Assembly (NCBI GenBank): GCA_946699065.1
Contig: CAMPDV010000210.1
Span: 248,001-312,000 of the forward strand
Direction of reading: 5' to 3'
DNA: 64,000 nucleotides
DNA from: Loxodes magnus
Taxonomy: Eukaryota; Ciliophora; Karyorelictea; Loxodida; Loxodidae
Positions 23,241 to 61,905 of the stretch are shown piece by piece. The stretch's first letter is position 1, and the number at the start of each line of letters is the position of its first letter. Under the pieces are notes generated by a model. The model had not been told where the DNA came from, ran no database searches, and saw only the letters and a program-made list of their open reading frames with translations. The position numbers and the translations under genes were made by a program.

Positions 23241-23261
23241 AAAATTATATTTATTGACAAA

Positions 23262-23790: not shown

Positions 23791-23797
23791 GATAGAA

Positions 23798-33480: not shown

Positions 33481-33563
33481 CTTTTAATACTATAAAATAG
33501 AACATATATATAGAAAAGGCAGATAATTCCAGAAAAAATTCTAAAATAAGAAAATGGGTAAAA

Positions 33564-35540: not shown

Positions 35541-35597
35541 GGTTTTCCTATCTGATTATCAAAAACTATCTTAGTTATAAAAAATGCCTCATACAAA

Positions 35598-35862
35598 ATT
35601 ATCTGGTACAATGTTTTACTGTATTGCGAGTAATCTCACACTAAATGTCACCACAGGGAAGATTGGAAAAGCTCGGAAGAGAAAACCTTATTTGCCTGAA
35701 GTTCTCGCTAGCAGTATGAGCGTTTGACTTACGGGCCATCTAATATCCTTAATTACTAATTCTTTTTCGGACCTTTTTCAATAAGACTGGAGCGTTTGGT
35801 TCAAGCTTCAAGAATAAATTTTAATAAGCAGATTTCCCATTTGGATAAGCTGACGTGACCTA
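35598..35862 (+). repeat. Conserved repeat, plus copy (LINE 3' region)
   Basis: Matches 21945-22230 in inverted orientation (shared blocks listed there). No terminal hairpin of the usual type follows within 100 bases, so this copy may be truncated at its 3' end. Confidence 0.75.
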
Positions 35863-36185
35863 CCTTTTATCCAACTTACTTTGTATGCTGATTAGCAATT
35901 GAGATAGCAAGTTGGATTTTGATATTAAGTTATGTATAAAACGCTTAAACCGAAGTCTAGTAATAGTCTAATAACTCACTATTAAAGCTTATTATATACT
36001 AAGCTTATAGAAACTGAGCTTATCAGTATAAGATAATTAATAGCATAATAGAGGATATTAAAGGAGGGATCGTTTTAAAAAGGTGTGGTCTAACCTAGAA
36101 GCAAGCTTTCATATACAATATTTAATCCTTTAGTTAATTAAATGAGCTTTACTTTGAGCGAAAGGTAGAAAAGCTAAGCTTTAAT

Positions 36186-37536: not shown

Positions 37537-39321
37537 AAATAATTAGATGAAAAATATATACCTGCTTAATATAAAATAAATGAAGATAAATGAGAGTATT
37601 TTGATAAAAATTTAAAGCAGGAGCATTCCTTAACATACATAAAGCCAATACATTTTCATTTTTTATAAGCATTATTTATTTATTTTACATAAGAGCCTAA
37701 AGTGTTTTTAACTATCATTAAAACTAAATAAATTTTAATTTTTGAACTTTATTTAAAACTAATTAGATAAAACTAAGCTAACTAAAGTTTATTTGATTGT
37801 AATTTCTCTTTTTTCATTTACTCTATTATGCTTCAGATACCAAACCTATTCTTTTATTTTCTTTTTTTAAATCACTAATATCAAAAAAAGCAAAACTAAC
37901 TTTCTTTGCTTTATATTATCATTTTTTTGTACTTATGTGTCTCTTAAACCATTTTTTTTCTTTCAAAGGAAAACATTTACATACATACTAGATATTGGGA
38001 AAAGTGAAGCTAAAATTTAAGATTTGATTATCTAGATTTTAGAAATGTTTAAATTTATCTAGTTCAGATGAATTTAGTCCTGACTAATTACTCTACACTC
38101 ATCAGGAATTTTCTTCAATACTAAAGCAAAAAACTATTAAGTTTTGCTATTTCGATAATTTAATGATACTTAGGATTTCTATGCATCCTACCTGCTTAAA
38201 TAAAGCTTTCGAGTTTCATATAAGTCTTAAATCTTAGTATGATTTCCTAATAAGATAAAGAAACTAATTTCGAAAGGATTAAAATCAAGGATAAAAGGAA
38301 ACGAATTATCAAGTCTATTATTTGATTGAGATGGAAACTAAAATGCGGTAATGTGTATATTGATGTAATATTAGTGATGATTTGTTAAGCACTCTTAGTT
38401 CTATGGTAAAGATTATGTAAATAGCTTTAAGGAAGAAGAGGTAGAAAAGACTGATGTAGATATGAGATTGATTTAAGAAATCGAAGAGGATTAAGTAGTT
38501 TTCTCTTCCTGTGAGATGAAACTCTTTATAGGTGAATAAAAATAAAGAAGAGATCATTAAATTTCCTTCACAATATTTCGAAAGTTTCATAGCTATCTCT
38601 TAAATAAGGATTTAATCACTTCTAAGAAAGTTTTTGCTAGATAGAACTAACTAAAGCTATTTAAATTTCATACTATATGCTATTATATTTCATCTTCTAC
38701 TTAAGCATCAAAACTCTACTAATGGAAAGCTTTTTTCTTCTATCATTAGTGAAATAAATTTTCATCTATTAATTTTGCTTTCAAGCTTTACTTTTAGATT
38801 TATTAATAAGTTTCAGTTGAATGATAAACTTTAATTGACTTAAACATATTCTATTGTAAATTCATTTCTAAATAATATGGAAAAAATCCTTTCAAACTTT
38901 ATCCTTTTATTCCTTTATAGCTTTTTAGCTTTTCTACTAGTTTTTAATATACTTTTCTTTTACTTTTTGAGAGTATAGTTAGTAGGAGTTCTGGAATAAC
39001 CTTTTGAAATTAGTATATCCAGTTATCCTTTCTTTCCTTCAGTTAATCAAAATGATGCATAAAAACTATCAACTCTATACTGTTCATATAGATCATTTTC
39101 TAGAAGCACATGCTTATCTTATTGCCTCTATAACATATTGAGTCTCTAAATACGTAAGAACCCACTTTCAATACAAATCCTTCTTAATCTTTCCTTTTCT
39201 ATTTGCCTTTTTATTTAAAAGTTGTTCACCCAAAAATTAATTTATATGACAATCATTTAATAAACAAGCATCTATATCGAGTGATTTCAACTTAATTGGT
39301 GTTTTCTTACATTTTAATAAA
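37537..39321. other. Spacer with one coding-like block
   Basis: Around 38330-38640 the plus strand reads FYGKDYVNSFKEEEVEKTDV and SCEMKLFIGEQKQRRDH, acidic and protein-like. No start, stop or family could be fixed. From 38650 to 39250 the sequence is T/C-rich with no supported gene. Confidence 0.35.
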
Positions 39322-41550
39322 ATGTAAACTGATTTCTAAAAGTCTAAGGAGACTAATAAGTTTGATTAAGGGTTATAGTGCCTTAACCAAACTATAGAGC
39401 TATGCTAATAGGCAGATATCAAGTATTCTCTCTATGACTTGGTATCATAGAGGTGCTAGAATATTATCAGTTGGATAATGCAAAACTTAAATATGCTAAG
39501 CAAAATCACTTAATCTCTTCTCGCTGATTTTAATGAAAAAACTGAAAAAATTTTCTAGATAATTTAGGAGTTTAGATATAGAGAAAATCCAGCGAAAATA
39601 TTAGAGCCTAGATAGGATTTTGACTTATTAAAATAGATTCAATGAGATCTAGAAGTATTAGATAGCAATCTTAAAATGAATCAGAGTGATGAAAAATACA
39701 AATAGAGTCTAGCTTAGATGGAATAAATGTGCTAACGAATGAAGCAATTGGATGAGCTTTAGTCTAAATTGCTGCAGTTGCTTGCATTCTTTAATAAAGA
39801 TTAGTCATCATGATCAAGGGAAAACAAAATAAACAGTTAAGAAGAATAAGTTTTGCAAAAAATAGCTTGGGTCTATAAGCATAATCCTGATAAAATAGTA
39901 TAGCATTATTAGTAGAAAAAGCCAGGAATAATGATCTAGTTAAGATAAAAGTATGAAAGTGATATAATTAATGACACAGAATAAAGGAACAACTTTTATT
40001 TGATTTTCAAACAGGAAATCAAAGGTCAAAAACAAGATTTATAAAACTAAATCTACTAAACTGATTTACAATAGTATCAATACTAACCTTACCAGCAGGA
40101 TTACTAGCAGTAGTTTTAGTGTAAGTTTTTACTATTATAGTTAATCAATAAGCTAAGGAAATAAAAAGTGATAATAACCAAGAATATTTATTACTTTAGA
40201 AGGAGACAAAAGGATAACACATAATGTCATCTAATGCTTTTAACTAATAAGTACAATATGAGGGATAAAGAGAAGGCAACTACGGAGTTAATCAATATTA
40301 ATAATACTAAACTTTTCCTATACAAACCTAAGAAAATTATGGCCCTAAAATTATCAATACTTTTTAAGATTAGATCCAAAAGGAATAAGTTGATTTAGTT
40401 AACTAGAATCGAAATCAAATGTAAATATTATCAAAAAGTTATGAAAATCAAATTTAAGAACTAACTAAAAGAATATAAGAGAAAGATGAAGAATCTAGAA
40501 AGATTCAATAGCAACCAATAAAACAAAAAATAAGCGAAAAATAGTAAAAGATATAAAAGGAGGAATAAAGAAGTGAGTAAAGTTCCATATATGAAGTAAG
40601 TATTTATACAGGGGATAATAGAGTGTGCTCAAAGCAGATTAAGAGTATATAGCGGATAAAAAATTGAGCTAGAATTGTAAGTTTTATAAATTAGCCAAAT
40701 TAAGAACGCTGGATTCGAATAATGGAATAAGCCTGTTAGTCTGTTCTAAGTAGATAAGCAATAGTCTTTTAAACTTGATAAAAAGTTGAATTCCTCAGAA
40801 GTTACCATAAAAAAGATATAAATAAGTTTGATTAGTTATGATGAAAATTCCATAGTTCAGACTTTTGTACTTAAGAAAAACGATAAGCTAGAAATTTCAA
40901 ATGAATGCAAAGTCTACTTTGAAGTGATGCAATTACCATAAGGTATAATTAAATCAAAATAAGATTCTAATCATTTTTTAAATGAGGAAGTGGTTAAAAT
41001 ATAGTTAGAAGTATAAAATATTGGAAAAGAGTAATGGCCTCAAAATGTCTCGGTAGAAAGTCTAGATAACTTTACTTAAAAATATTTAGTAGGAATTTTA
41101 AATCCGAACTAAAGCAGAACAGTGGAAATAGAAATTAAAACGGAAAAAGATTCAGGAAAGTATTAGCATAAATTACAACTGGAAGTAGAAGGAAATCGTT
41201 TTGGAGACACTTATACTTATTAATACAAGATTTATAATCCTTAGACTGAGAAAGATCCGTAGTTAAAAAAAAGTTACCAAGACTTTGCATAAAAGTTAGA
41301 TGAAGAAAATTTGAAATAATTCAAAAAACTAAAAAAGAGAAGAGACATTGCCTGGTATTTTCATTATTCTTAGAAAGAAAGATTTAAATAAATAAGCTTG
41401 AAAATTTTTGTCGAGGCAATCCTAAAACAGAATTCATAGATGACCTAATAAGATTTGAAAAAATGTTTATAATAAATCTCACCAAGAAAAATTGAGGGAG
41501 GCTAAGTATAGATAGTGAGAAAATCAGGATGTAATTGTTAGATTTTATGA
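39322..41550 (+). CDS. Coiled-coil protein with Ig-like (NBR1 FW-like) repeats, three tiny introns
   Basis: Join of 39322-40120, 40141-40595, 40612-40676 and 40695-41550; 724 residues, stop TGA 41548-41550. The N-terminal 250 residues are helical (QTIELCQQADIKYSLYDLV; KIAWVYKHNPDKIVQHYQ). A Q/Y-rich linker and a coiled coil (NQIQELTKRIQEKDEESRK) follow. Two beta-rich segments begin EFQIKNAGFEQWNKPVSLF and LEVQNIGKEQWPQNVSVES; the second continues to VEGNRFGDTYTYQYKIY. The N-x-G-x-x-x-W-P start and G-x-x-FGD end match the layout of NBR1/ILRUN four-tryptophan domains, a tentative assignment. The C terminus has a helical module (FVEAILKQNSQMTQQDLKK). A decayed inverted paralog lies at 18.7-20.7 kb. 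Confidence 0.75.
40121..40140 (+). other. 20-nt intron
   Basis: GTAAGTTTTTACTATTATAG. Its removal joins the Q/Y-rich linker to the coiled coil in frame. Confidence 0.85.
40596..40611 (+). other. 16-nt intron
   Basis: GTAAGTATTTATACAG. Its removal joins the coil frame to the first beta-rich repeat. Confidence 0.8.
40677..40694 (+). other. 18-nt intron
   Basis: GTAAGTTTTATAAATTAG, a multiple of three. Splicing gives ELEFQIKNAGFEQW, a better strand than the unspliced reading, and the identical sequence is kept in the pseudogene at 19483-19500. Confidence 0.8.
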
Positions 41551-42699
41551 ATTACAAATCATATAAGTATAATTTTAATTTTTAAATAAAGAAATAATAA
41601 ATCTATCTAATCTCAGAATTTCTAAATTAATTAATTTAACTTTATGTTTTTAAATTTTATTAAAGAAAGATAATGAAAAGATATTCATAAAGAGGATTAT
41701 GAATATAAAAATAATACTCTAGATAAAAAATGAAAATTTACTAGTGATGATGTATAAACTGTAAAATAATAAAAAAGAAGTAATTTAAAATAAAAAAATT
41801 AAAGCGAAACTAAGAAGATTAAAAGGATAGAAAGAGCATAGACAAAAAAGGATTGGATGATCCTATTATAAAATACTTTTAAAGACATATGAAAATGTTT
41901 ATTTCGTATTATAGAGATTTCATCAATAAGTGAATAAAACATATTGGCATTATATTTATATCTAAACAAAATTAGAATAAAAAAATTTAGCTTTAAATAG
42001 AACAACTTGATTTATAAATTAACTTAAAAGAAGTATTTATAAAGTGCAATAATTTTAGTCGATGATATGTCAACTACTATACAAAAGAAAAGTGAAAAAT
42101 GATGCTAAAAAGAATAAAATTTATAGTAGAACTAAAATTAAGATTTTTAAAAGGAAATAAAGCAATTTAATTTAAATATTTTATTTCTAAATTAAAAATC
42201 TTAATTTATATATAAAATTTGATTTATCATTAATTTAACTAACTCATGTATAGTATATAATTATATCTTCATGTAATTTTTATCATGCTTTTAAATAAAT
42301 TTTATTTTCATTAAGCAATAAAATTATAAATAATACTATCGTTTTGTTAGATTCAAAAAGGATGGGAAAATATTTTAGTGAATAAGCATGATTTTTTCTT
42401 AATGGATCTTTTTATTCAAAAGGTAAATTTATTTCTTTATATTAAAAGCTGCATTTTTTATATTTTTATTTTATGAAGCTTAAATATTTTACATCCTGTT
42501 ATTAACTTACTAAGAAGCTAACCAAAAAGTCCAATGATTTAGTCTTTTATAGCAATAGTAATAATTACAATTTTTTATTTTTATTATATATTTTATTCTA
42601 CTTTATGAAATAGCTTTAATTCATGTATTTAGAAATAAAATTATTAGAATGATATTAAAATTTAATCTTTAAATAGTGATGAATATTTAAATACTAAGA
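41551..42699. other. AT-rich intergenic stretch
   Basis: No gene, motif or repeat supported. Confidence 0.4.
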
Positions 42700-43170
42700 T
42701 ATAGCTTCTCCTGGATTTTAAACTAGGTACTTGCTGCCATTTCTTTTACGTGGATGAATACCGTGACCTTTGCTTATTTGTGGTGAGTTATTACTAATAA
42801 TTATTTTCAGTTTTAAAAAGAAATTTCTATGACATTTTCTCAGTTATTCATAAGTAATTCAGTATTCTTCACGTTCTTGTTGTTCTCTTCACTTTATTTT
42901 TTTTAGGTTGTCAATGTTATAAAATATGGCTCACTTTTTGCCATACCATCAGCTTTCGGACTATTTTTCTTTCATTTTTTCTGAAATATTTTATTATCCC
43001 ATTATCTCTATTCTCTTTTATAAATCCGAATCATTACTTTCATCTTGTCTTATTTCTTAATAATTAATTTATCTAACTTTGGAGTTTCAAATCAGCTTCA
43101 TTCTTAGGTTTTTAAATCTCAACAGATCCAATCATAATTTTACCTTCAGATGAAGAGCCTAATTCTAGGC
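42700..43170 (-). pseudogene. LINE ORF1 fragment (linker, decayed knuckle, C-terminal motif)
   Basis: The minus strand reads LGSSSEGKIMIGSVE near 43130-43170, matching SSPEGKIIIGPAES of the plus-strand ORF1 at 51.9 kb. At about 42865-42830 it reads RTWRILNYLWITEN, matching KTWRALNKLWITEN there. The region between lacks recognisable Cys ligands, and frames must be combined, so it is decayed. Confidence 0.65.
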
Positions 43171-43310
43171 TAAATTTTAAATTTATAACTCAATTTGCTA
43201 TTTTTAAGTCAAAGCTTTCACAAAATAACGCTAATTCTTTTGATTATAGTTTAGATTAAAAGTCTCGAAACTCTTTTTTTTATTAAATCACTAAACCAAT
43301 CTAAGAAGAA

Positions 43311-45060
43311 ATGCAAAGGGTAAGAAAAATGGTGGAATATCTAGAACGTTCACTAAAAGGAATAAAGAAAGCAAAATTTAGTAAAAAGGGCAAGGAATAA
43401 TGAAAAATAGAAGAATCTCACTAATAAATACAAAAATTGAAACTGGAAATGAATGACTTGAAAAACATCTTCGATAGAGTTAGAAAATTAATCGTTTATA
43501 TTGAAGTCTTCGATAAAATAGCGATATGTTTTACAAATGTAAATTAAGACAGAGTAGTAGCAGAAAAATAAATTTAGTAGTAAAGCAATTTAAATAAGAG
43601 TTGCTAAATGTAAATAAATAAAAAATACTATTGAAGCAAAATTTGCAAACTAAATATATCAACTATCCAATATCCGTTCTTAATGTAAACTGAAAAAAAG
43701 AGAAAAAAGCAAACTGTAATAATATAGATAAAAAAGAAAAAAGTAAACAATAATGTAATTAAATCAACATTTTCTGAAATATTACAAAGATTCTACTATT
43801 TTGGTGAAATTTAAAAATAATCACGCTTGCAGAAGATGAGAAGATTTGAAAATTTAGCAATCGAGATATTTTTAAATTCAATGAAAAAATTTAATTTATA
43901 CACTAGATATCTATAGAAGAGAAATTGAATAATCCATCTTTCTCAATCTTGTTGAAACCGATACATATCCCAGCAAAGAGGTAATTAGATAGATTAAAAC
44001 AAAATGGGATTATAAGCTTCAGGAAAGTAAGCTTAATTATATTGCATTTAATTTTATATAAATAAGAAAAAATTAAAATAAAAAAAGGAAAATTGAATCT
44101 TCTAATCTTTTTCCCGGTCTTTTATTATGTAAGACAGAAAGGAACAATAGAGAAGTAGAAAATTAAACAAAAAACAATTAGAAACTCTTCTCCTCATTAA
44201 TAAGCATAAATAAGAACCCTTCAATTTCAACAAACGCTATCAAAATTGATAAAAAGAAAAGAATCTAATGTTTAATAAGAAAAAGAAACTTCATAAAATT
44301 TTAAGAAGGAAGAGAATATTCTGTAACTGGTAGTTATGGTTTTGAACTTTTAAGAAGTGATATTAGAACTAAGGGAGGAAAAATTAAAATTAAAAGATTA
44401 ATTATAAAATGGATAAGAAGGGTAAATGAAAAGAATGATCAACTATGAGAAAGAACTCCAAGCTTATAGGAATATTTAAACAGAGCATAAATAAGAAAGT
44501 ATAAAACGGAGACTTATTATAAAAGCAAGTAATTTAAGCCTAAAAACTGAATAGCAACCCAATGAAATGGAATATGTAAATGGACAAGATGGCGGTAGAA
44601 TTAGAAGAGGCTAATGATTAGCATCAATTTAAATATGTAAGGAAGAAGTCTACTATTGTTAAAGCTAGGGACATTTAATCAAGTGATGTTAAGAGTTAGG
44701 AAATTTTCGATTAAATATTAATTATTAATTATTGACAAAAAGACTAAAAAAAATTAAAAGAACTTCACTGATATTAAAAAGGTAATGCTTACAGAAAGAA
44801 ATGAAATGAAGCTTCTTTTGGAATATTCTCAAAAACGAGAAGCTAGTAAAGAAATTTATTTGAATCCAGAGAATAGAGACCTATGAAAAAGACAAAAAAA
44901 GCAATAGAGGTAAATATGAAACTATTTATTTTAAACGATAACTGAGCTAATACTGTTAAATAATTTTAATTTGAATCGATAAGAAATTATTTATTAAATA
45001 TTGTGTATATTAATTAAGACACCAAAGGAAAAATGATACAAGGAACCTAAGTCCAAATTA
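43311..45060 (+). pseudogene. ORF1-like coiled-coil region of a LINE
   Basis: ATG 43311 opens MQRVRKMVEYLERSLKGIKK, then a coil (HQQIQKLKLEMNDLKNIFDR) to about 43560. A second coil reads FQEVILELREEKLKLKDQLQ and MINYEKELQAYRNIQTEHKQ near 44340-44510. Frame changes lie between the two blocks. The region leads to a LINE 3' end with hairpin at 45352, so at least the second block belongs to that element; the first could be a separate gene. Confidence 0.45.
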
Positions 45061-45245
45061 TTATTTTAGCTAATTATATTCTTTGGATCCTTTCGTGAGT
45101 TGATGTACCTTTCTAATTATTCCGGAAAAATGAGATTTCGATAAAAACGATTTGAGTCTAACTTTTCGCAAAATCTCACAATTAGTTTGAACTTTCAACT
45201 AACAGGTTGCTAATTAATTAACTACTAATTTTTATTTGGTAACAA

Positions 45246-45410
45246 TAATTTTAATAAGTAGATTCTCTATTCGGATAAGCTTACGCGACTCATTGGGTGG
45301 CTACAATATCAACAAGAAGAAAGAGAAACATTTATTTAGTTTTAAATTGAAAGAGTTGCGTTCCAACAAGATTCTACACGCTCTATAATCATATTAATTA
45401 TAACTATTTA
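45246..45410 (+). repeat. LINE 3' end: conserved 45-base block plus hairpin copy 5
   Basis: 45246-45292 matches the end of the conserved repeat at 35819-35862. About 60 bases later AGAGT (45352) pairs with GCTCT (45380-45384) using one G-T pair. ATAATCATATTAATTA follows. Confidence 0.75.
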
Positions 45411-47023
45411 TTTATATTAGTATTTTAACATAAGATATTGAAATAAATTTAATCCTATTAAATTTTTCTTTCATTTCTAGATTATTTTGTATAAGATATT
45501 CAAGATAAAAAAATAATATAACGTAACTTTCTAGTTATACAATAATTAAAAAAGAAAGTAATTTTATCTATTTTAAATAGCGGCGAGAAAATAAAAAAAA
45601 GTAAAAGAAATGTAAATGTTTTATTTGGTTTCGTCTGATATTTCAATTTTACTTATTCATCAAAAATAAATTTATTTAAACTTTTAGTCAAAAAACTTAA
45701 TAAAAAAAGAAAATATAAATATGGCTTAAATTATATGAATTAGAATAAGAAATAAATTATTTATATAAATGTAAAGTAAAACGGATAAGGTAGCATGATT
45801 TTATTTTGTTAAAAGGCTTTTAGTCAAAAAGAAGAAAAAATCGAAACTAAATGATGTAACATAATCAACTTAAGTTGTATAATTTTGACATGGGAAAAAT
45901 AAAACGTCTAAGGCTGAAGCATTAACTACTTATAAATAAAACTTTAATATTTAATATAAGAAATTAATAATCGTGGAGTATTAAAGAGAAAGATATACCA
46001 AGATATTATTATATAGAGAAGCAAGATAATTTAATAGTTTAACTAGAATTAAAATAAAAATTGATAAATGGGAATGAAATTATTTATTGCTCCTTTTTAA
46101 AACGATCGTGGTGACTTTTAATATAACTCTATTTGTTTAAGAAAAAAATAATCTAAATCTGGGAGAAATTTAGTTTTCTCAAAATGTCTTTTTTCTAAAT
46201 CAAAAATCAAATTTAATAATACTTGAAATATTTCTTACACTCAGTTTTATATCTGCTGATTCTAGTTATTTTTTATACAGCTATATATCCATATTTCATT
46301 TGAATTAAAAGTATGGTTGCATTGTCTTTTATAACAGTCCATTATCATTCTACAGACTTTTGAAGCTCTTTCTAATTTATATCTTATACTTTTTCAAATC
46401 AAAACATTTGTAATCCTTAGCAAAGTTCTATGTCAAGTCGAAGTGATATCCTTTTTGTAGAACTTTAATTATTTTATTTTTATTCTTTCTAATGTATCCC
46501 TTTTCTTGCTTATTATTTAAAAGTTCTATTTTTTCTTTCTATACTCCAAATTTAACTCTACTTACTTTAGATTATATATAATATACATTTATTTTATATT
46601 AACTCTCTTTATTTTCTATCTTATTATCTTTTACTCTATTTAATTTATTTTATCTACTTTTACTAATATCAAGCATTCTAACTTCACTTCTATCTTTACT
46701 TCCTATATATATAAATTATTTTTCTTGTACCTTACTTTAATATTTACTGTTATACTTTATATTCTTGCCACTTATCTATTAAACCTAGTAATCGATTACT
46801 CATAGAACTACTTTATTATAAACCAAATTTTCTTAGATTTGCATATTAATTAAAGCATACTAGCTTAAATAAGTCCATATGAAACTAGTTACATAGTTAC
46901 TAGTTAGTATATACATTTAATTGATTAGTGTTAATTTAATTGTTAATCTCTAAATCAAGTATATAAGCCAATATCCATAGTAAGTATATTTTTCTTATAA
47001 AAAGATTGTAAAAATAGGCTTAA
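45411..47023. other. AT-rich stretch downstream of the kinase gene
   Basis: 46150-46980 is C/T-rich on the plus strand, as expected for decayed minus-strand coding DNA, but no motif can be followed. The first bases after the kinase stop are its 3' untranslated region. Confidence 0.35.
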
Positions 47024-49702
47024 TCATTAATTATAAAAAACTCCCTTAATAAATTGCCCCTTCAGTACTTTGCCATTTGAGGATTTATATACTCCATATC
47101 CTGTTCTCTTGTTTTCTATCCAATCTCCTTCGTAAATATCTCCATTGGTCCAAAAATAAGTTCCTTTGCCCCATTTTCTACTGTTTAATCATTATCCTTC
47201 GTATCTGTCTCCATTTTAGTATTTATATACTCCATTTCCAGTCATATTATCCTCTAATCAATCTCCTTCGTAGGAATCTCCATTAGCTCAATTGTAAATT
47301 CCTTTGCCTTGCTTTTTACCGTTTAAATAATTTCCTTCATATCTATTACCATTAGAAAATTTGAAAAGCCCATGTCCTGTTCTTTATTCTTCTTATCAAT
47401 CTCCTTCATAAATATCTCCATTGGTCCAAAAATAAGTTCCTTTACCTTAAAATTTACTATTCAAGAATTATCCTTCGTATTTATCTCCATTTTAGAATTT
47501 TTTAATTCCATATCCTGTCATTTTGTCTTCTTGCCAATTTCCTTCATAAGCATCTCCATTAACCCAGTTTTAAATTCCTTTTCCTTGTCTATTATTGTTT
47601 AATCACTATCCTTCGTATTTATTACCATTTCAAAATTTAATAACTCCATGTCCTGTTTTCTTGTCTTGCTACCAATCTCCTTTGTAAATATCTCCATTAG
47701 CTCAATAGTAAGTCCCTTTGCCTTAAAATTTACCTTTTAAGAATTATCCTTCGTATCTGTTTCCATTTTAAAATTTTTCAATACCATATCCTGTTATAAT
47801 GTTTTCTTATCATTCTCCTTCGTAAATATTCCCATTTGCTCAATAAAAAGTTCCTTTACCTTATTTTTTATTATTTAATCAATTTCCTTCATATCTGTTT
47901 CCGTTTTAAAATTTGTCAACTCCATAGCCAGTTCTCTTGTTTTCTTACCAATTGCCTTCATAATAATCTCCATTAATTCAATAATAAGTTCCTTTTCCTT
48001 AAAAGTTATTATTCTAGAATTAGCCTTCGTATCTATCTCCGCTTTTATATTTTCTAACTCCAAATCCTGTTCTTTTATCTTATAACCAATCTCCTTCGTA
48101 AATATCTCCATTAGTCCAATAAAAGGTTCCTTTGCCTCATTTTTTACCATTTAGTCATTATCCTTCGTATCTTTCTCCGTTTGAAAATTAAATAATTCCA
48201 TATCCAGTACTCTTGTCTTCTAGCCAGTCTCCTTCGTAAATATCTCCGTTAGCCCAGTAGTAAGTTCCTTTGCCTTAAAATTTACCATTTAGAAATTATC
48301 CTTCATATCTATCTCCTGTCCAAGGACTTTACTATCATTTATAAACTCCAAGTCCTATTCTCTACTCTTCTTATCAATCTCCTTCGTAAATATCTCCATT
48401 AACCCAATAGAAAGTTCCTTTACCTTGTAGTTTATTATTTTAAAATTGTCCTTAATATCTATCACCATTTTTCAATTTTCAGACTCCATATCCTGTCCTG
48501 TTGTCTTCTGACCATTCTCCTTCGTAAATATCTCCGTTATTGTAATAATAAGTTCCTTTGCCTTATTTTTTATCATTTAAAAATTATCCTTCGTATCTGT
48601 TTCCTGTCCAAGGACTTTCTTGTCATTTAAAAACTCCGTATCCTGTTATATAGTCTTAATGCCAATCTCCTTCATATATATTTCCATTGATATAATAATA
48701 AGTTCCTATGCCTTGTCTCTTCCCATTTACTATTTATCCTATATACCTATCCCCATTCTGATACTTTATTTCTTCTTCAACTGCTTACATAGATCGATTT
48801 CTCTTTTGTGTTTTATCTTCTTCTCTTATAAAAATCTATTCTATCTTCCTTTCACTAATTACTTATTCTTGATTAAAATACTTTCTTTTTCCTTCTAGCA
48901 ATTTTTTCTGCAACTCTTATATATTAATTCTCTACTAGGCTTCACTTTTCCAGCATTCCTATATACACTCTCTATAGTCTTAAGGACAGTTGGCACTTAT
49001 TTATTCCCTTTCACCTCTCTTTACTCCCTCTATTAACACACTCTCTATCACATTCTCAAATGGCATTCTTCTTTCAGCTATCTCTCACATAGTCATTCCT
49101 AGCGCATATATATCAGATTGAAAGCTGTATTCAGGTCTCATTTAAAATAATTCTGGTGCCATTCAGCATAAAGTTCCTTTTTATTAATTGCTTTCCTAAA
49201 AAGAGCTTTTTTATCTGGAAGCTACTTTTTATTTAGTATATCCAAAATCACATATTTTAGCTCTGCATTTTTCATCCAATAAAACATTAAGACTTTTCAA
49301 GTCTCTATGAATTATTCCTTTTCCATGGATATAATTCAAGCCTTCCGCTATTTCTAAACTTATTTAGTATCTTCTACTTCAATTTATTTCTTACTCACTG
49401 TGAAGTAAATTGAATAGCGATTAATACATTAGTTCCATTACTAAACTGGCAGGAGAAAGACAGTATCCATATAGCATAACTACGTTTGGATGTCTCATTT
49501 ATGACATTATTTAAAGCTCAGTTTCGAGTTCTTTTTAAGCATTTTATGTTAGATTCTCTTCATAAAACTATTTTATAGCCACTTCATTCACTTCACTCCA
49601 TTTACCAGCATATACTTTTCCAAAGCTTCCCTTTCCTAATTTTTTAATCTTCTTTAAGCTTGTATTAAGAATGATTAATCCCTATTAAGCACTGCCTAGC
49701 AT
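47024..49702 (-). CDS. Protein kinase (TKL-like) fused to 24 MORN repeats
   Basis: Complete single-exon frame, ATG 49702 to TGA 47026-47024, 892 residues. Kinase domain, residues about 17-285: [14 protein letters not shown] glycine loop, VAIK lysine, [13 protein letters not shown] catalytic loop, [27 protein letters not shown]. The HRDLKxxN loop and MAPE motif fit tyrosine-kinase-like Ser/Thr kinases. A charged linker of about 60 residues follows, then 24 MORN motifs in 12 dimers of 46 residues (e.g. [28 protein letters not shown]) and a partial one ending FYN. MORN arrays usually bind membranes or proteins, so cortical or membrane targeting is likely. All catalytic residues are present, so it should be active. 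TAA/TAG are Gln throughout and about 20 TGA codons are Trp. The final TAA-TGA is read as Gln then stop. Confidence 0.95.
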
Positions 49703-49949
49703 TTTATAACATATAGAGAATATTTAAATAAACCAGTAGAAAATACCAGAATCGAACTGAAATAGATTACTGTCATTTTATTAATTAACTAAATATTATG
49801 AAAATAAGGCAAATGCTTATTAATTATTTGTATGGTTTATTTTATTATGCTTACTCTAAATTACTCTATTAGTTTCTTTTTAAGATTTATACACTCGATA
49901 TAATAAAATTAGGTTCACTTTTTTTAATAGGATCAATGAGTTTTTCTCC
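49703..49949. other. Upstream region of the kinase gene
   Basis: AT-rich leader and promoter region by position. No specific element recognised. Confidence 0.4.
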
Positions 49950-51100
49950 TGCCTAATGTATTAATCAAAATTGGGATTTAATTCAGATTTTATTGCTTTC
50001 TAGTTAAATTTCTTAGGGTTTTTATAATCTTTTAATATCAGATAATATGTTTATAATTTGTCGAAATTGGAAAGATTTCTCACTTTAAAGCTTTTTGCTT
50101 ACAAGATAAATTAAATGCTTGGCGTTCTTGGAGGTTTTTCTACCTCTTTCCAGCATTTTCTAGATTGTTCTAGAGGCTAAATATAAAAGTTTTTAAATCT
50201 TTGAAACTTTCTCCTTTTTTATGCATAAGGTCCTTGAATTATTTTTTTGCCTAAATAATTTTTTTTCTTGCTTATTTTCTGAAATTGTTTTAATATTAAT
50301 ATTCTATTTCTTTTTTTATTTTTATCTGATGTTGCTTCTTCTTTTTATTCTCCCACATCTTCTAAGAGTTTCCGTACTCTTACTGAAGTTGTAAAATTTC
50401 TAACATCCTTTTCACAGATTCATTTGAGAGTTACAATAGATGTATCTTTTTTCTTGCTTAGGCTAGGATCTTTGCTTTTACTTCTTCAATTATCATTGAT
50501 AATTTCCTTATTTTCTTAGCTACAGTTAACATTGAAACTTTTGTAGTTTATAATTGAATTTTAGTTTTAGTGAAATATTCCAGAATCTGTTATGTTCTTT
50601 TCTTAGTTCATTAGTTTCGATTCTTTTTCCTCTGCTATATCAAGTTTTTTATGATCTTTCTTCAACTTTATGGTTATTTCCTGGAAATCCAGCACCACTT
50701 TAAGCAGCTAATCATAACTTATTAACTTTTTGGTGACGAAATCAGAAAATTCTGTGTAATTTATAATTTTAATCTATTCTAGATTTTTCTTCCTAGTTAG
50801 AATCTCGATTTGGTGGATTTTTTTTGACTACCTTTACCGGTTCTAGTCTCTCTATGATTTCATTAACTATGCTTTATTGGATTGAAAATATTAATCTAAA
50901 TCCTGACGTCTTTTTTACTTATTTTCTCGTATTAAATGAAAATTTATTTTATCTTCCTTTTATATTTGACGTCACATTCACTTTTCGTGACATAGAATCT
51001 GTATTCTTCTCTTATCAAATCTTATGCTTATTCAATATTAAAATAATATTTATCTTGCTTGATTCCCCTATTTTCCATTTTCTTTTAGCCGCTCTTTATA
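49950..51100 (-). pseudogene. ORF1 remnant: coiled coil and decayed zinc knuckle
   Basis: The minus strand near 50700-50560 reads LLKVVLDFQEITIKLKKDHK, then AEEKESKLMNQEK, matching the ORF-B coil of the small retroelement (IKVVLNLQEDIKRLKKDN; AEGIESRLMTQE). Near 50430-50390 the knuckle reads YIYCNSQMNLWKGC: the second and fourth ligands remain, the first Cys is Tyr and His is Asn. Clearly decayed. Confidence 0.65.
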
Positions 51101-51880
51101 AGTTCAAAATTTCTCGAAAGATCTAGTTATAAAAATTAAAATTTGAATAAACTGAATAAATTAAAATCTTCACTTTTGTCAAATTTCCTTCTGTTATTTA
51201 TCAGATATTTTGAATATTTATACTTAGCATCATGCAGTTACTGTGGATTATTTGATTACTTAAGAACTAATCAATTTATTCGTGATTGAACCTTGGAAAT
51301 ATATTTTCTTTTTTTAAATCAGATGCTTAACTTCTTTTGACACTATTCAACCTTCGTTATGCAACAGTAGGAGGATTTTATCTATCTCATTCTCACCACA
51401 TAATTACTACATCTATCAACATAATTACTATAAAAAAATATTGCCTTTCTTGCTGAATATACATAAACTGGAGTAAAAGTCAGTTGACTTTATTTTTAAA
51501 AATTGTAGATTGGCATTATAAGCGATATTTTTAAATATCAGCTGTATTTATAAAGTTTTAATTTTGACAAGTATAGCAATATAACTTTATCATGCTAATT
51601 TATATGCAGCTAAAGATTATTGGAACTTAACTTTCAACTTTCTACTTCTTATCCATCCTATTAGATCATCAGTAACTACATAATTAGTACTTGCTTTATT
51701 AATATCCGCAACATTCACCAGAGTTCTTTTTACAGTTCTAGGAGAAATATCTTTTCGTAGCAATCTCATTAATATTCACTTAGCTTCCTATAATAAAGCT
51801 AACTAAAATAATGGAATAATAGGTCCGTCTTTCAAAAAACTAAATAAGGAAAGCAAACGACGAAAGAAGAACTAAAAAAA
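51101..51880. other. AT-rich stretch, no gene supported
   Basis: No motif, repeat or RNA gene that I can support. ORF1 of the next element begins near its end, with the start codon uncertain. Confidence 0.35.
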
Positions 51881-51899
51881 TAAAAACAATAATAAGAAT

Positions 51900-52615
51900 T
51901 TAGCTCTTCACCTGAAGGAAAAATAATAATAGGTCCAGCTGAGTCAGTTAATCCACAAGTTTAGAGTAACGACTTTCTTCAAGATTAAATTGAAAAATTG
52001 AAAGCAATGATCACTAAATAAGATGAAATGATATTCAATTACGGAGATCGAATTCGAGAACTTATGGATTGCATCGAAGATTAAAACAACGAATTAAAAA
52101 TATTGAGAAGCTAGCTAATAAAAAGTAGTTTAGTTACAGAATAGTAATTATGAGAAATGTCATAATCAAATTTTAAATAATCTCAATGCATGATTATAGA
52201 AGAAACTCCAACCCAATTTTAGAATACATAATAAAATGAACCTAGTTAAGAATAGGCAAGTACGGATTTAACTAAAAGAATTGAACAACTGGAAAATAAA
52301 ATATTTAAAAAGAAGAACACTGAAAAATAAATAAAAAATTGTTGGTATTGCTACTCACGGAATCACTTACTAAGACACTGCAAAGAATGAAAGCATTTAC
52401 AGATAAGAGAAGAGCAGAAAACATGAAGAGCTTTAAATAAACTATGGATTACTGAAAATGGAGTTTACAGACAAAAACTTTTAATACGCAACAAAGAAAA
52501 TTAACAGTGGTAACCATCCACTTACAAAAAAGATCGGGGAAGACTTACCACGTAAAAAAATTGGTCTGCAGGTACCTGGTTGAAAGCCCAGGGATAGCAA
52601 ACTTTTATTTAACAC
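51900..52615 (+). CDS. LINE ORF1: coiled coil, intact CCHC knuckle, NGVY motif
   Basis: Best-preserved ORF1 here. The frame reads SSPEGKIIIGPAES, then a coil (FLQDQIEKLKAMITKQDEMI; RELMDCIEDQNNELKILR), a Q/T-rich linker, a short second coil (TKRIEQLENKIFKKK), and the knuckle NCWYCYSRNHLLRHC (52340-52381, CX2CX4HX4C). KTWRALNKLWITENGVYR and a basic tail follow to about 52610. Two TGA codons after the knuckle read as Trp and align with residues of other copies. No break in this frame over about 235 residues; the N-terminal start is not fixed. Gag-like RNA-binding protein; an RT partner is not adjacent. Confidence 0.8.
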
Positions 52616-53279
52616 TAAGTTCATTTATTATTATTAATAAAAGCTAACTCAGAAAGACTAATTAAATACTTTATCCTTTTTTCTAGAAATAAAGTATTAA
52701 AGCTACTAGCAGAATACAAAACTACTAGAGCCACTAATGTAATTACTTTTAATATGAAGCAACATTTACCTTATAAATATCTCTCATATTATCTAATTAG
52801 GTATTAATGGGAGATAAATCCTTATTTCTATCCTTCAAGGGTAAAAAATAAACTTAATGCTTATAAAATATTCTTTTGTCATCATTAATTTAAGCTTCAA
52901 AGGTAGCTAAAATTAAAGTATCAGTACGTTTTCCTATCTTTCGTTTAAGTAAAGATGTATAATAGAAATGATTAGTGTTATTTCTATGAGTTTCTCTAGC
53001 TTTTATCTTATTAATTTCATAGCTTAAAGTAAGTTAATAAATCCATGTGTATATATATTGGGTTGTTTGACTCTCAAATATAAAATGTAATATAGAAAAG
53101 AAGATAAAAAATAGAAGATACTATACTTATAGAGACTTTGGCGAAAAGATACAACTTTCAGGTTTTGAGATTTTAAAAAAAAATAGTTTCATCTCAAACG
53201 TTTAGAAATTAAAGAATATGATAGCGACTAAAAATTTTTATAGCATTTGAAAATTAAATGAAAGTAGCTTGAAAAATAA
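52616..53279. other. AT-rich stretch, no gene supported
   Basis: No motif or RNA gene. It separates an ORF1 from the duplicated unit. Confidence 0.35.
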
Positions 53280-53607
53280 GCACTATTAAAAAAGTACTGA
53301 TATTAAGAAAAGTCTTAAGGGAATAAAATTATTTGAAAGGAAGTTAAATTTTCGCTAAGTTTGGGATAGGAGTAATAAAGTATGAAATATGTAATAATTT
53401 AAAGGAAGCTAGACAGTTTAAGCTAATATCAACTATTAGTTAAAACTATTATTAATAAATTATTTATTTAACTAAATCAAGGAACTTTACTCAGACTGAT
53501 AAAAGTATAGAACCTACTAGTTTTAGTTGCAATCAGATAGAATAAATATAAGAAGAAACTCTGCTGATATCAGGAGAGTGGTATTTTAACTAATAAAATA
53601 AGTTACT
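53280..53607 (+). repeat. Duplicated unit, second copy, left part
   Basis: Matches 28350-28675 nearly without indels. It ends in the left target duplication ATAAAATAAGTTACT (53593-53607) of the inserted retroelement. The start codon of the drawn ORF is TTG here. Confidence 0.8.
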
Positions 53608-53617
53608 ATAAAATAAA

Positions 53618-53884
53618 ATGGAAGGCTTCAAAAAGGGTTTCTATACCACCTCCTCGAAGAAGGAGAGGAAACCAGAAGCAAATCTCGGACAGTCTTCTTA
53701 CGCTTAACCTTAACCTTTTTCTTAATAACCTTAACAACCTGGAACATAATAGAACCACGAAGAACGGAAACAGACTCAGAAAAGCACTCATATGCTTACT
53801 CCAACGTGGGAGGAGAAGATTAGAAAACAGGCAAAATCTGCTTTGCACTAGGAGGTCACAGATTTAACCCTTCTGGCCAGATGA
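53618..53884 (+). CDS. ORF-A of the long retroelement
   Basis: 88 residues from ATG 53618 to TGA 53882-53884. Begins MEGFKKGFYTTSSKKERK, then Q/P-rich (SYAQPQPFSQQPQQP). Same start, stop and ATGA overlap as the copy at 7743; six codons shorter. Confidence 0.6.
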
Positions 53885-54540
53885 GCATGGAACAGTTCAT
53901 TAAAGTTGTACTAAACCTCCAGGAAGAGGCCAAAAAGTTTAGGAAGGACAATGAGAAGCTAATGCATTAACTTAACCTAGCAGAAGGAATAGAGTCAAGA
54001 CTCATGTCCTAGGAAAGAGAACTAAGCGCCTTTTGAAACATATCGCAAAGTCAGAATAGTTAATCCTAAAATTAGCTTCAGTAACAGACTGAACTGGATA
54101 ACAGACTCATAAAAATAGAAGAGAAATTTTAAACATTTAAGAAAGATCAAAGCGAAACTGGAGCTATACAAATGGAAATCGAAGCCTAAAAAGAGCAAAT
54201 CCATCAAGAAAAATAATTAAAAATCAAAAAAAAATGTTTCTGCTGTGGAAGCGTATGACATCTTTATCGGAAGTGTTGGAAATTTTAAAAGAAATAAAGA
54301 AACTATTGGATAAAAGAGCAAAAAAAGAAGAAGCAAGAATGAAAAGAATGTATTGTAATCCGGATGGTTCAATATACAAGATTAAGATGAAACCAAGGCA
54401 AGTTAAAGGAGGAAAAACCGTGAAAAATCCGAGTTCGCTAAAATTGGGCGACCCGAACTTTTATATTTAACAGCAGGGAGCATGAACTGCTGTCTTCCTG
54501 ATGGGGGTTGAAAATCCCTAAAACGGAAAACATAAATTAA
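53881..54540 (+). pseudogene. ORF-B of the long retroelement
   Basis: Starts MSMEQFIKVVLNLQEEAKK at 53881. The coil runs to about residue 110 (ELDNRLIKIEEKFQTFKK), then the knuckle CFCCGSVWHLYRKC at 54235-54276 with Trp from TGA. After the knuckle two extra bases relative to the 8-kb copy shift the frame before YCNPDGSIYKIKM, the conserved C-terminal motif. Frameshifted but otherwise well preserved. Confidence 0.75.
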
Positions 54541-54593
54541 TATTATTATATTTTTTAAAACCGCCATAGTTGTTCGAAGGTGAACAGCAAGGT

Positions 54594-54824
54594 CATCTTC
54601 GTCAGAGGTTGGGGAAGTTAAGTACCCATAACCGACTTTATGTCTTCCTCTGCTTTGGTTTGGCCTCAAGACATAAGATTCTTAGACCTTCGACACTGGC
54701 TTGGCTTGGCTTGGCTTCGTTTATTTTTAATTCTGGAACTAAAAAGAAATAATATTGCGAGCTTCATCAGAGGTGGGGAATTTAAGTACCCATAATTGAC
54801 ACATGTCGTCCTCTGCTTTGGTGA
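54594..54824 (+). repeat. Pair of about 62-base direct repeats with a conserved hairpin
   Basis: Copies at about 54594-54655 and 54760-54824. Each has CAGAGG pairing with CCTCTG, with an inner GGG/CCC pair around TTAAGTACCC. Both stems are kept while loop bases differ. Between them lies GGCTTGGCTTGGCTTGGCTT near 54691. Lies in the 3' region of the retroelement. Confidence 0.7.
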
Positions 54825-54889
54825 TGCAATGAGACACAATCCTGCCATGCCCTTGGACCTCCAGCAAGTATTAAAGATTACGAGTATTC

Positions 54890-55012
54890 TGAAATTATAT
54901 CAGTATTGAACATTTTTATCAGTACTGAATAATTATACCAGTATTGAACAAGATTTATCAGTATCTGATAATTTTATCAGTAACAAACATTCTTGTCAGT
55001 ACGAAACATTTT
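54890..55012 (+). repeat. Short tandem repeat, TATCAGTA-type units
   Basis: Five to six imperfect units of about 21 bases with core TATCAGTACTGAACA, directly before the terminal hairpin of the retroelement. Confidence 0.75.
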
Positions 55013-55019
55013 TTTTTAA

Positions 55020-55076
55020 AGAGCTGAGCACCAACGAGAGTGCTACGTGTTATATAATCAAATTTATTTATTTATT
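55020..55076 (+). repeat. LINE 3'-terminal hairpin, copy 6
   Basis: Loop CAACGAGAGTGC as in copy 2; the 3' arm is partly changed (GTGTTAT). ATAATC and ATTT units end exactly at the right target duplication, proving that the hairpin plus tail is the element terminus. Confidence 0.85.
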
Positions 55077-55455
55077 ATAAAATAAGTTACTTTGCTTTGA
55101 CTTGAGTAACAAAAATGGGAAAAGCTCAATTAAAAGAATTTAAACTTAGTATATAATTTATTTATATAAATTTTAACTCAAATTACGCTAATTTATTATA
55201 ATTTTAATACTTCACCTACTTTGCTCATTATATCTTGATTAAATTCTATCAAGTTTAACCAAAGATTTCATAGTATTTCAAAAAGATGTAAATGCTTCAT
55301 TTACCTCCACTTAATTTTATTAGGGTTATAATAGTTTTAAATAACTCAATCTGCTATTTTTTTAATTTAGCTTCAATAGGAAAAATTCGTTTGAAAATAA
55401 ATTATCTAATAAGGCAGATATTTAGTTTTAAGATAATGACTAGTTGATAATATCA
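55077..55455 (+). repeat. Duplicated unit, second copy, right part
   Basis: Matches 29232-29590. The 550 bases between left and right parts of the 28-kb copy are missing here, a deletion older than the retroelement insertion. Confidence 0.8.
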
Positions 55456-55470
55456 AATAAATGAGATTAT

Positions 55471-55503
55471 AGAACGCGTAGCACCTCAATGATGTGCAGC
55501 TCT
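55471..55503 (-). repeat. LINE 3'-terminal hairpin, copy 7
   Basis: Minus-strand copy, AGAGC pairing with GTTCT by one G-T pair, followed on the minus strand by ATAATCTCATTTATT. It faces copy 6 tail to tail across the duplicated unit. Confidence 0.75.
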
Positions 55504-56032
55504 TTAATAAAGATTTTTAAAGTTAAAAATTCTTTGCTGAAGTCTTCTAAAGACCATTATTCCCCTGTGAGTTTTGTCTTTTATAGGGCCGCAATCAGAA
55601 TGCTACCCTAAGAGACCTTAGTATCTAGCATCTTTCATCATTAATCCTACTTGATGCCACTTCGATTCTGTCTTGTCTTCTCTTGGCTCCTACCAAAATT
55701 TTTGTTTGGTTCTTCACCTATGGGGTACTGGAGGATTGTTTTTCCCTATTTATTTATATGATATAATCTAAAAACCTATTTTCATCAGAAAAAATTACTA
55801 GAGGTTTAGCATCACTTTAACTAACTATTGGAAATGTATCTGATTCTCAGTGAGTAATTCTGATACTTCATATTTCAAGATATTCTTAGCCTATTTCCTA
55901 GACTTTTCCTTATATATTAGGATTTCAACCTTTCGCGTTTTTTAATTGACTTTTCCCTAATTCTAGAGATTCTAGGATACTACTTCTCCTATATTTTTAA
56001 GATGCTAAAAGCTTTATTTTTTTACCTTCCAT
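55504..56032 (-). CDS. ORF of a minus-strand element ending at a LINE hairpin
   Basis: ATG 56032 gives MEGKKIKLLASQKYRRSS, then EIGQEYLEIWSIRITHWESD and IFSDENRFLDYII. After a frame change near 55760 it reads PHRWRTKQKFWQEPREDK, then CGPIKDKTHRGIMVFRRL, ending at the hairpin. Basic end and position suggest a retroelement protein; family unknown. Confidence 0.45.
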
Positions 56033-56391
56033 CTTAGATTTTTTAAAGATAGTTAAAATTAAATGAAAGTTCTTTCAGACCCTTTTACTAATCTAAGATA
56101 AAATGCTCTCAAGTAAAATAAATTCCAATATTTTATGTTTATATAGTAATATAAAAAAAATGCAAAGCGGCTTTCCTTTTTCAATGGACAAGTAGGCATT
56201 GAAATAAAAAATTCCTTACAAAAAAGTTAATAGAACACTCAATACCTGCATTGAAAACTGAAAAAAGTGACAACTTGATTGAATCTCTGAAAGTGATAAT
56301 TAAGAAATAAAAATAAATAAAGAAGGCATAGTAAGGTAATTCAATATAGACTTGTATATTTTAGATTTGATAATGCTGAAATAGAAAAAAT

Positions 56392-57540
56392 GAATTCTTA
56401 ATAGATGATACAGATTTTGATGAATTTGATCACATTTTAAATTGCTTTTATTACACAGATATTCTTTAGGAATTTAATAGCATCACATTTCTATTCGATA
56501 AGATTCCAAAAGACTAATATTATATGATTAAAACTATAAATTTCAATTTCACTAAAGCCAAATTCCTAAAGTAGATAAATTTATTAAAATCTTTATAAGG
56601 ATCTAAGACAGAAAATGATGGAAATTTCTAAGTTACAAGATGAAAATTAAATAAATCTCTTTAATCAAAAATAAGAAAATTAGTAGGATGAGTTAGAATG
56701 AGAGATTTTATCTAAGCTTAGGAACTTTTTATTTAGACTATTGAATGATTTATATAACATAATTAGGCTTAATGCTGAAGCACTTATAGTTTATTTATTT
56801 AATAGATAATATAGTTAATATATCAACTTTAAAAAATAAAGATATTCGAAGAGGACTTAAACTCATTAGAAGAAAGAAATATTCGAAATAAGTAAACCAT
56901 CATAAAGTATGATGATGAGGTTCATATAGTAGACCGAAGAACTAAAACCGAAGTCTATGAAGAATGATAGAGTTAGAGTATGAGAATTCAATAAGGAACA
57001 AAACGATAAAATTTGAGTAAAATTAGATTCAAGATTCCAAACAAATTGAAGGAAATTTGTAGAAATATTGAAAAAACATTCACTAAAATAGAAAAAAAAT
57101 TTCATATAACAAGGAAAATGAGCTAAATTTGCAACAGTAATAGATATTATGATGGAAACATCCAAGAAAAAAAAGTAACATCTGTCGAGATATTAGCTTC
57201 TAGGAATTTAAAGAAAGAAATATTGAATCTTATCTTTCAGAAATTGAAAAACACTGGAGAAAAAAATTTAAAATACAAGATATAAAATAGCGAATAACTA
57301 GAGATTAAATGCAGGACTAAAAGAAGTTCAATAGTAAATTACTAAACAAAAAAAATCAACATGTACTTTTAAGCCGAAAGGTTAATTATATTAATAATTA
57401 AAGATTAATTTAGTTATAAAAACCAGGAAAAAGGTACATATCTAAATAAATGTATAATTGAAGAATTTACTCTTCTCTTAAAATTTTCCTACTTTATCAT
57501 TTTAAGAAAAATGTGTTTAATAATGAAATTTGAAAGAAGA
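56392..57540 (+). CDS. Host-like gene of unknown function (5' end not fixed)
   Basis: One frame without shift reads EFLIDDTDFDEFDHILNCFY, then FNSITFLFDKIPKDQYYMIK, later FEEDLNSLEERNIRNKQT and KYDDEVHIVDRRTKTEVYEE, and KKVTSVEILASRNLKKEI. Composition is consistent for over 350 residues. Upstream bases near 56338 contain GTAATTC...TATAG and may hold a short intron and first exon. The stop is uncertain. No family is recognised. Confidence 0.5.
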
Positions 57541-57844
57541 AGTTCGTAAGATAGAAATATCTTAAAATAAATATTAAAGTTATTAATAATTTTTATCTAT
57601 TATTCCTATTTAAAGTAGCTTCTTCGTTTTAAAGATCCTTTTTTAAGTGCTTTCTAAACATAATTATTTATAAATTATGCTAATATTGTATGTCTTTTCT
57701 AGAAATGCTTTTTTAATAAAGCAATTTAAATACAAATATTTAAAATGAATTTACTTTTTTAATTACATATATAACAACAAACAAATAATTAATAAAATAA
57801 TAAAAATTAATTATAGATTTAGAATGCAATTGATATCTTTTAGA

Positions 57845-58331
57845 GTTGATCTCTCAGAAAGATACATTGATAAAGAGTAAATATTATGTATTTATAACAA
57901 AAAGAAAAATTTTAGCACGTCTTTGATTGCTAATGTTACAGATAAATTATATAAGAAAACAGTCTTCAGATTCAAGAAACATTATAAAATCTAAGCACAA
58001 ACATAAGTCTGAAAAGAAGGAAAGAATAAATATCAAATAAAAATGAAATTATTAAAAATTGAAAGAGATGTAGAATATAATCAACTTTTAATAAATTAAG
58101 AAACAAAAAAAAGTATTAGAAGAAATTGATCTTAAGATTAAAAAATTGGTCTAGAATGAAACAAAAACATTAACAAATAACTTGATTTTAAGAATAATTG
58201 AGCGAAAATTTAATCCATTAGTAATATGTGAATAAAGAAGACTTAAAATAATTATTTTTAATATGAACAAAGATTAAAGAAGAAGAGAAGCAAATCAATA
58301 AAAAATTAAAGTCAAATCAAAACACTAATGA
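57845..58331 (+). CDS. Basic coiled-coil-like ORF, unknown
   Basis: Reads LELISQKDTLIKSKYYVF, then SKHKHKSEKKERINIKQK, then KKVLEEIDLKIKKLVQNETK and IIERKFNPLVICEQRRLK, ending at TGA 58329-58331. Very rich in Lys. May be a further exon of the preceding gene. Confidence 0.4.
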
Positions 58332-60900: not shown

Positions 60901-60929
60901 TTTAAATAAATCAATCTTCATAGTTAATT

Positions 60930-61720: not shown

Positions 61721-61869
61721 ATATAAAATATTTTAATTTGATTGGATAGTTACACTAAGCTAATCTTTCAGAATATTTAAATAATATAAAAAATTATATT
61801 ATTTATTTAGAATAAAATAGTCTTTATTTAAATTTAAAAGCATTATATTAAATAAATAAATTTGATTAT

Positions 61870-61902
61870 AGAGCGCGTAGCACCTCGTTGGTGCGCAGTT
61901 CT
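61870..61902 (-). repeat. LINE 3'-terminal hairpin, copy 8
   Basis: Minus-strand copy with GCGCACCAACGAGGTGC loop region and GCGCTCT arm, followed on the minus strand by ATAATCAAATTTATTTATTT. Its element body, if any, lies above 61905 and is not recognisable. Confidence 0.8.
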
Positions 61903-61905
61903 TTG

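Follow-up and report, generated by a model that had tools for sequence, protein, structure and literature searches.

A kinase-MORN gene of Loxodes magnus read through TAA, TAG and TGA, consistent with the published table 27 code

The code of Condylostoma is listed as NCBI table 28, and in codes of the Blepharisma type TGA is read as Trp while TAA and TAG act as stops. For the karyorelicts, the genome study of Loxodes magnus describes, in its passages on the genetic code, the use of table 27, in which UGA is the only stop and also encodes Trp (PMC11441545). Excerpts of an earlier study report that every stop inspected in Parduczia was UGA and, for Condylostoma, that all three codons serve as sense and all three terminate (PMC4967479; Cell 2016). 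Condylostoma magnum is therefore like Loxodes in that all three codons are sense, but unlike it in that TAA and TAG also terminate there. Blastocrithidia likewise has all three codons reassigned, with UGA as Trp and a tRNA-Trp(CCA) with a 4-bp anticodon stem; unlike in Loxodes, UAR encodes Glu and UAA is the stop. The locus described here has the properties listed under table 27 for Loxodes and Parduczia, namely TAA and TAG as Gln, internal TGA as Trp, TGA as stop and a lower GC content past the stop, and no departures from that table were found. Its code is thus one that had been described before in Loxodes and related ciliates, and no new code is added. The initial annotation of this DNA had read TAA and TAG as Gln and TGA as Trp and had called this known for karyorelicts, which matches the published code of L. 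magnus.

The kinase-MORN gene and its in-frame stop codons

Throughout, the window denotes the whole 64-kb stretch of DNA that was analysed. With ATG, GTG or TTG as start and under table 11, the window contains no closed open reading frame of 150 codons or more. When TAA and TAG are translated as Gln and TGA as Trp, the minus-strand frame from 49702 to 47024 gives a single unbroken protein in which a kinase domain is followed by a MORN array (Table 1). Its 893 codons include 49 TAA, 12 TAG and 21 TGA, together with 19 TGG, 12 CAA and 2 CAG as the standard codons for Trp and Gln. Segmentation of the window by codon usage recovers this gene, and with the stops masked the closest solved structures to the kinase domain are EGFR, B-Raf and CTR1. 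The count of 24 MORN repeats given initially agrees with the array, which holds 24 full units of 23 residues and then a partial 25th.

Table 1. Features of the kinase-MORN gene, in positions of the window
Feature	Position	Strand	Remark
Protein kinase-MORN gene	47024..49702	-	ATG at 49700-49702; open for 893 codons only with TAA, TAG and TGA as sense
Protein kinase domain, TKL/Tyr-like, residues 17-268	48899..49654	-	PF07714, E=3.9e-60
24 MORN units, 23 residues each	47078..48757	-	PF02493, E=6e-116
DNA repeat with 138-bp period (two MORN units)	47078..48757	-	TRF
TGA as Trp, codon 108	49379..49381	-	W in 47% of aligned homologues
TGA as Trp, codon 180, directly before MAPE	49163..49165	-	W 71%, Y 21%
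TGA as Trp, codon 206, subdomain IX	49085..49087	-	W 60%, Y 21%
Last coding TGA	47189..47191	-	55 codons upstream of frame end
TAA, penultimate codon, Gln by table 27	47027..47029	-	
Inferred true stop TGA	47024..47026	-	GC drop after frame end

For the kinase domain, every stop was masked as X in the search to keep the assumed code from influencing the outcome, and the alignment consisted of the 120 listed of 128 homologues. Trp was the commonest residue at all three TGA codons (47%, 71% and 60%), including the TGA before MAPE and that of subdomain IX, which the initial annotation had singled out and which are both in place. The log-likelihood for TGA was highest for Trp (10.3, followed by Tyr at 3.3), and that for TAA, over 15 columns, was highest for Gln (6.5, followed by Thr at 1.4). 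TAG alone, with five columns, returned Glu (3.1), Thr (2.5) and Gln (2.4) in this order, and the pooled TAA and TAG columns returned Gln (9.0), with Thr next at 3.9. Among the control sets, those for K, E, D, L, N, Y, G, R and S, as well as TGG, returned their own residue; both CAA/CAG columns failed to return Gln.

A second test compared the 24 MORN units within the gene, excluding two 4-codon inserts that carry two more coding TGA. Here TGA scored +23.4 for Trp (n=15; next Phe, -1.8) and TAA +34.4 for Gln (n=30; next Trp, -3.4), while the four TAG gave Leu (+2.1) above Gln (+1.1). Of the control codons, four out of 11 were assigned correctly (TAT, ACT, AAT and GGA) and seven failed, including TGG and CAA, because the tested codon is omitted from small columns. 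Ten of the 15 TGA share their column with TGG in another unit of the same parity, as expected from the earlier remark that the same Trp column is written TGG in some units and TGA in others; four of the others lie in an aromatic (F/Y/I) column and one in a column without Trp. This coincidence of TGA and TGG, together with the kinase test against outside homologues, is the firmer evidence and carries the argument, not the within-gene scores. The codon-versus-profile prediction that had been proposed as a check thus finds the TGA columns of the kinase and MORN domains enriched for Trp and predicts Gln for TAA. The claim that this frame shows the code directly stands for TGA as Trp and TAA as Gln, and is not confirmed for TAG as Gln, since Leu comes first for TAG in the MORN units (n=4) and Glu in the kinase domain (n=5).

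Codon meanings in the rest of the window and in the genome

The initial annotation had also stated that reverse transcriptase, zinc-knuckle and host reading frames of the window agree with this code, and this was not borne out. By Pfam, no reverse transcriptase was found in all three plus-strand frames over 1-9999, 22001-25602, 28000-47702 and 52001-64000, nor in all three minus-strand frames over 15999-22000, 24999-37998 and 49700-52102. Two matches to reverse transcriptase motifs, obtained in the window by regular expression, were unconvincing. Six CCHC zinc-knuckle motifs are present, at 746, 8377, 52340, 54235 and 61482 on the plus strand and at 34996 on the minus strand. At least two of them, at 8377 and 54235, are related to each other and have a decayed appearance, and the exchange of stop codons between them is similar in all three frames; codon-by-codon comparison of the copies gives no frame signal, and they were set aside as support for the code. 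Matches resembling host genes stayed below threshold: an NBR1 Ig-like domain at 40984-41211 on the plus strand (PF16158, E 1.1e-5, scoring 26.4 bits where the cut-off is 28), whose frame contains several TAA and TAG, and a CHDNT match by Pfam. Outside the kinase-MORN gene, codon-usage segmentation gave no trustworthy gene models; ten of the segments had no Pfam match save for one weak MORN unit, which stands alone at about 26430 on the minus strand and is below the cut-off (E 0.00055).

We then turned to the whole genome (705,730,643 bases in 7843 contigs). Of 461 MORN matches, 301 were kept (ungapped, at least 8 bits and at least 15 columns), giving 260 distinct units from 28 other loci; some of these loci (L009-L028) were picked partly for their internal stops, which biases the frequency of TGA upward but does not set its distribution over columns. 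Columns 9 and 22 hold 105 of the 113 TGA and 132 of the 139 TGG. TGA scored highest for Trp (214.1; next Phe, 156.2) and TAA for Gln (227.7; next Glu, -0.8), and the column counts of CAA/CAG correlated with those of TAA (Pearson 0.89) and TAG (0.52). The 25 TAG are scattered, with Met (9.2) above Gln (3.9). All seven printed controls (TGG, CAA, AAA, GAA, TAT, AGA and GAT) gave another residue first, partly by design, because the tested codon is omitted from its own column.

A set of conserved genes was obtained with ten conserved proteins, nine ribosomal proteins and LC8, used in one joint search, which returned 44 loci (L059-L102). These were aligned with stops masked, and paralogues among them are not independent. 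TAG stood opposite Gln in 34 of 48 cases and TAA in 34 of 75, and the control codons CAA and CAG did so in 25 of 51 and 13 of 20, respectively. The sole aligned coding TGA faces Trp.

Where the proteins end and which code applies

In 33 of the 44 conserved loci TGA stands exactly at the expected stop, and in the other 11 it lies one codon before it (three loci) or one to six codons after it (eight loci). In 41 of the 44, TGA is the earliest of the stop-type codons to appear at the end; the exceptions are L087, where TAG precedes the first end TGA, and L091 and L096, where TAA does. L087 and L091 are copies of RPS27, whose four paralogues have in common a tail of six codons that runs to one shared TGA; in L087, two codons ahead of this TGA, a TAG aligns with a CAA of L086. 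L096 is a divergent LC8-like gene, and its TAA may be its stop. In the four RPS16 loci the same Gln, five codons before TGA, is written CAG in one and TAG in three. Only a few codons away from the expected ends, TAA and TAG are still used for Gln. Since TGA lies at or near the end in all 44 loci, and TAA and TAG keep the meaning Gln even close to the ends, these data point to table 27, in which TGA alone is ambiguous. The earlier conclusion that the stop must be set by context for all three codons accordingly holds for TGA, and has to be given up for TAA and TAG.

The 3′ end of the kinase-MORN gene can be compared with the published genome, for which the sections of PMC11441545 on gene structure give 3′ UTRs with a median of 41 bp, a GC content of 33.5% in coding sequence versus 18.6% in 3′ UTRs, and a depletion of coding UGA and UAA over about 20 codons upstream of the stop. 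The GC content of the kinase-MORN frame is 0.31-0.35 in its last 300 nt and 0.25-0.31 in the preceding 300 nt; past 47024 on the minus strand it is 0.20 in the first 100 nt and 0.17-0.26 over the next 700. The distance of the last coding TGA from the end of the frame (Table 1) is consistent with a choice of the stop by closeness to the poly-A tail.

Taken together, the locus is almost certainly an ordinary kinase-MORN gene in the macronuclear DNA of L. magnus that follows table 27, with TAA and TAG as Gln and with TGA as Trp inside the gene and as stop near its 3′ end. Under a code of the Condylostoma type, which reads all three codons as sense within genes and lets any of them act as a stop near the 3′ end, the TAA of the terminal TAA TGA could be the stop of this gene, and the TAA of L091 and L096 and the TAG of L087, which lie near the end ahead of TGA, could be taken in the same way. 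We regard this as very improbable, given that TGA falls at the expected stop or within -1 to +6 codons of it in 44 of 44 loci, that the Gln of RPS16 alternates between CAG and TAG so close to the end, that the TAG of RPS27 faces a CAA in its paralogue, and that PMC11441545, where it treats termination, gives UGA as the sole stop in L. magnus. The gene itself does not tell which codon of TAA TGA ends the kinase-MORN protein; the code of the whole genome does.

It is harder still to see the frame as a decayed pseudogene or a relic of a mobile element that carries in-frame stops under the ordinary code. The macronuclear assembly of 706 Mbp is described as repeat-rich in the relevant part of PMC11441545, and zinc-knuckle copies in other parts of the window have a decayed appearance, but the frame runs for 893 codons without a frameshift, both domains are full-length, TGA and TAA concentrate in the Trp and Gln columns, and TAA and TAG also occur inside ribosomal-protein and eRF1 genes. 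A Blepharisma-type code, in which TGA is Trp and TAA and TAG are stops, shares the reading of TGA and is the least credible of these alternatives, as TAA (34/75) and TAG (34/48) stand opposite Gln inside conserved ribosomal-protein genes and tRNAs with UUA and CUA anticodons are present.

tRNA genes, eRF1 and the reading of TGA

A search for tRNAs with UUA and CUA anticodons had been proposed from the outset, and both kinds were found, with similarity to tRNA-Gln. A tRNA pattern with YYA anticodons gave 261 matches in the genome versus 26 for the reversed control, and ARAGORN identified 17 tRNA(UUA) and 12 tRNA(CUA) among 30 fetched matches, the remaining one being without a tRNA. Compared with four human tRNAs, the UUA and CUA tRNAs are closest to tRNA-Gln, with 59 and 54 of 72 positions, against 42-49 for Glu, Lys and Trp; the UUA tRNA is identical in 26 of 28 letters to the listed match of a canonical Loxodes tRNA-Gln. 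The pattern for canonical tRNA-Gln has 223 matches in the genome and none in the control. The UUA and CUA tRNA genes and the canonical tRNA-Gln matches occur in tandem arrays (C130:557669-566516, C214:232620-237069, C154:588970-616806 and C341). Because canonical tRNA-Gln genes are amplified too, such arrays are not peculiar to the reassigned codons. Within the 64-kb window itself, ARAGORN and Rfam (at the gathering threshold) found no tRNA and no RNA family.

A second pattern, for tRNA-Trp(CCA), had 132 matches versus 14 in the control, and 100 of the 132 were listed. Two arrays stand out among the matches listed, one with at least 48 copies at a period of about 187 bp (C67:482323-491172) and one with at least 46 copies at a spacing of mostly about 241 bp (C148:155464-167931). 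In all seven array members that were fetched (L107-L113) the anticodon stem is reduced to 4 bp, its top pair 27:43 being broken (A.C or T.C), and a separate tRNA-Trp(CCA) gene on C110 (L114) has the full 5-bp stem; two further matches to the pattern (L115 and L116) contained no tRNA. For tRNA-Trp(UCA), a YCA pattern gave no matches (four in the control) with the Gln-type spacing, which is off by one base and overlooked tRNA-Trp(CCA) as well. Among the 100 of 132 tRNA-Trp-pattern matches listed, three have a TCA anticodon, and the one fetched contained no tRNA. A DNA search of the genome with human tRNA-Trp gave no match, which is uninformative since tRNA-Trp genes exist. The Loxodes genome study does not use the word 'tRNA' in its main text (PMC11441545). 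A later article, in the passages bearing on this point, cites Swart et al. 2024 for a 4-bp tRNA-Trp(CCA) in Loxodes and reports that tRNA-Trp(CCA) with a 4-bp stem raises UGA readthrough in reporters (PMC13092985; NAR 2026). From this literature, the 4-bp tRNA-Trp is most likely the reader of UGA in Loxodes.

Three matches to PF03463 were found in the genome. Two of them, both on C196 (19713-20081 and 54613-54981; L104-L106), are eRF1, and the Loxodes N domain has ribosome-bound eRF1 as its best match (1.4e-40); the third, on C2 (L103), presumably belongs with Dom34/pelota, which it resembles. Both eRF1 copies carry E55->A and Y125->F, numbered as in the human protein after placement by motif, and retain NIKS as well as a Leu at the site of human residue 126. 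Before NIKS, R-A-Gln replaces T-A-S in both, and this Gln, inside the decoding loop, is itself written TAA. As reported in the excerpted results of PMC4698671, Y125F and E55Q in human eRF1 cut UAG release to 34 and 35% and keep UAA release at 100 and 75% and UGA release at 100 and 80%, respectively. Because the human changes keep UAA release, E55->A and Y125->F alone need not suffice for the loss of UAA reading and do not by themselves explain it. Where UAA and UAG encode Gln, most species have Phe instead of Leu at the residue corresponding to 126, according to the part of PMC4482090 that deals with it. The Loxodes protein would thus fit the idea of an altered N domain, via other residues.

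Around the observations made here, which comprise the codon meanings, the terminal TGA, the tRNA genes with their stems and the eRF1 substitutions, a mechanism may be proposed in which TAA and TAG would be read as Gln by the dedicated tRNAs with UUA and CUA anticodons, and internal TGA would most likely be decoded as Trp by tRNA-Trp(CCA) with the shortened 4-bp anticodon stem. Near the 3′ end of the mRNA eRF1 would win, so that TGA would act as stop there. The loss of UAA and UAG reading by eRF1 and the tipping of TGA toward stop by closeness to the poly-A tail are taken from the literature or from reasoning, and both should be read as conjectural parts of this scheme.

The use of TGA for Trp differs between the genes compared. 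In the kinase-MORN gene, TGA accounts for 20 of the 39 Trp codons, whereas the 44 ribosomal-protein and LC8 loci have one coding TGA (L098, far from the stop) versus 37 TGG, of which 14 lie at most 20 codons from the stop and 23 farther out. When only sites opposite a human Trp are counted, 9 near and 18 far TGG stand against one TGA; two further in-frame TGA (L073 and L080) precede the start codon. Given the shortness of these genes and the lack of independence among copies, the scarcity of TGA in this set is only a lead. It is possible, though we think it unlikely, that the extent to which Loxodes uses UGA for Trp varies by degrees with gene class and tRNA supply, in which case decoding of UGA could be costly and kept from highly expressed genes, and the two types of tRNA-Trp could share the work.

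Codes without a purely-stop codon show that position allows ribosomes to distinguish stop from sense; Loxodes belongs to the organisms that have such a code as well as a published genome. With TGG and TGA within one repeat column, the kinase-MORN gene is a clear teaching example, and the located tRNA and eRF1 genes are concrete objects for testing how the ambiguity of TGA is resolved.
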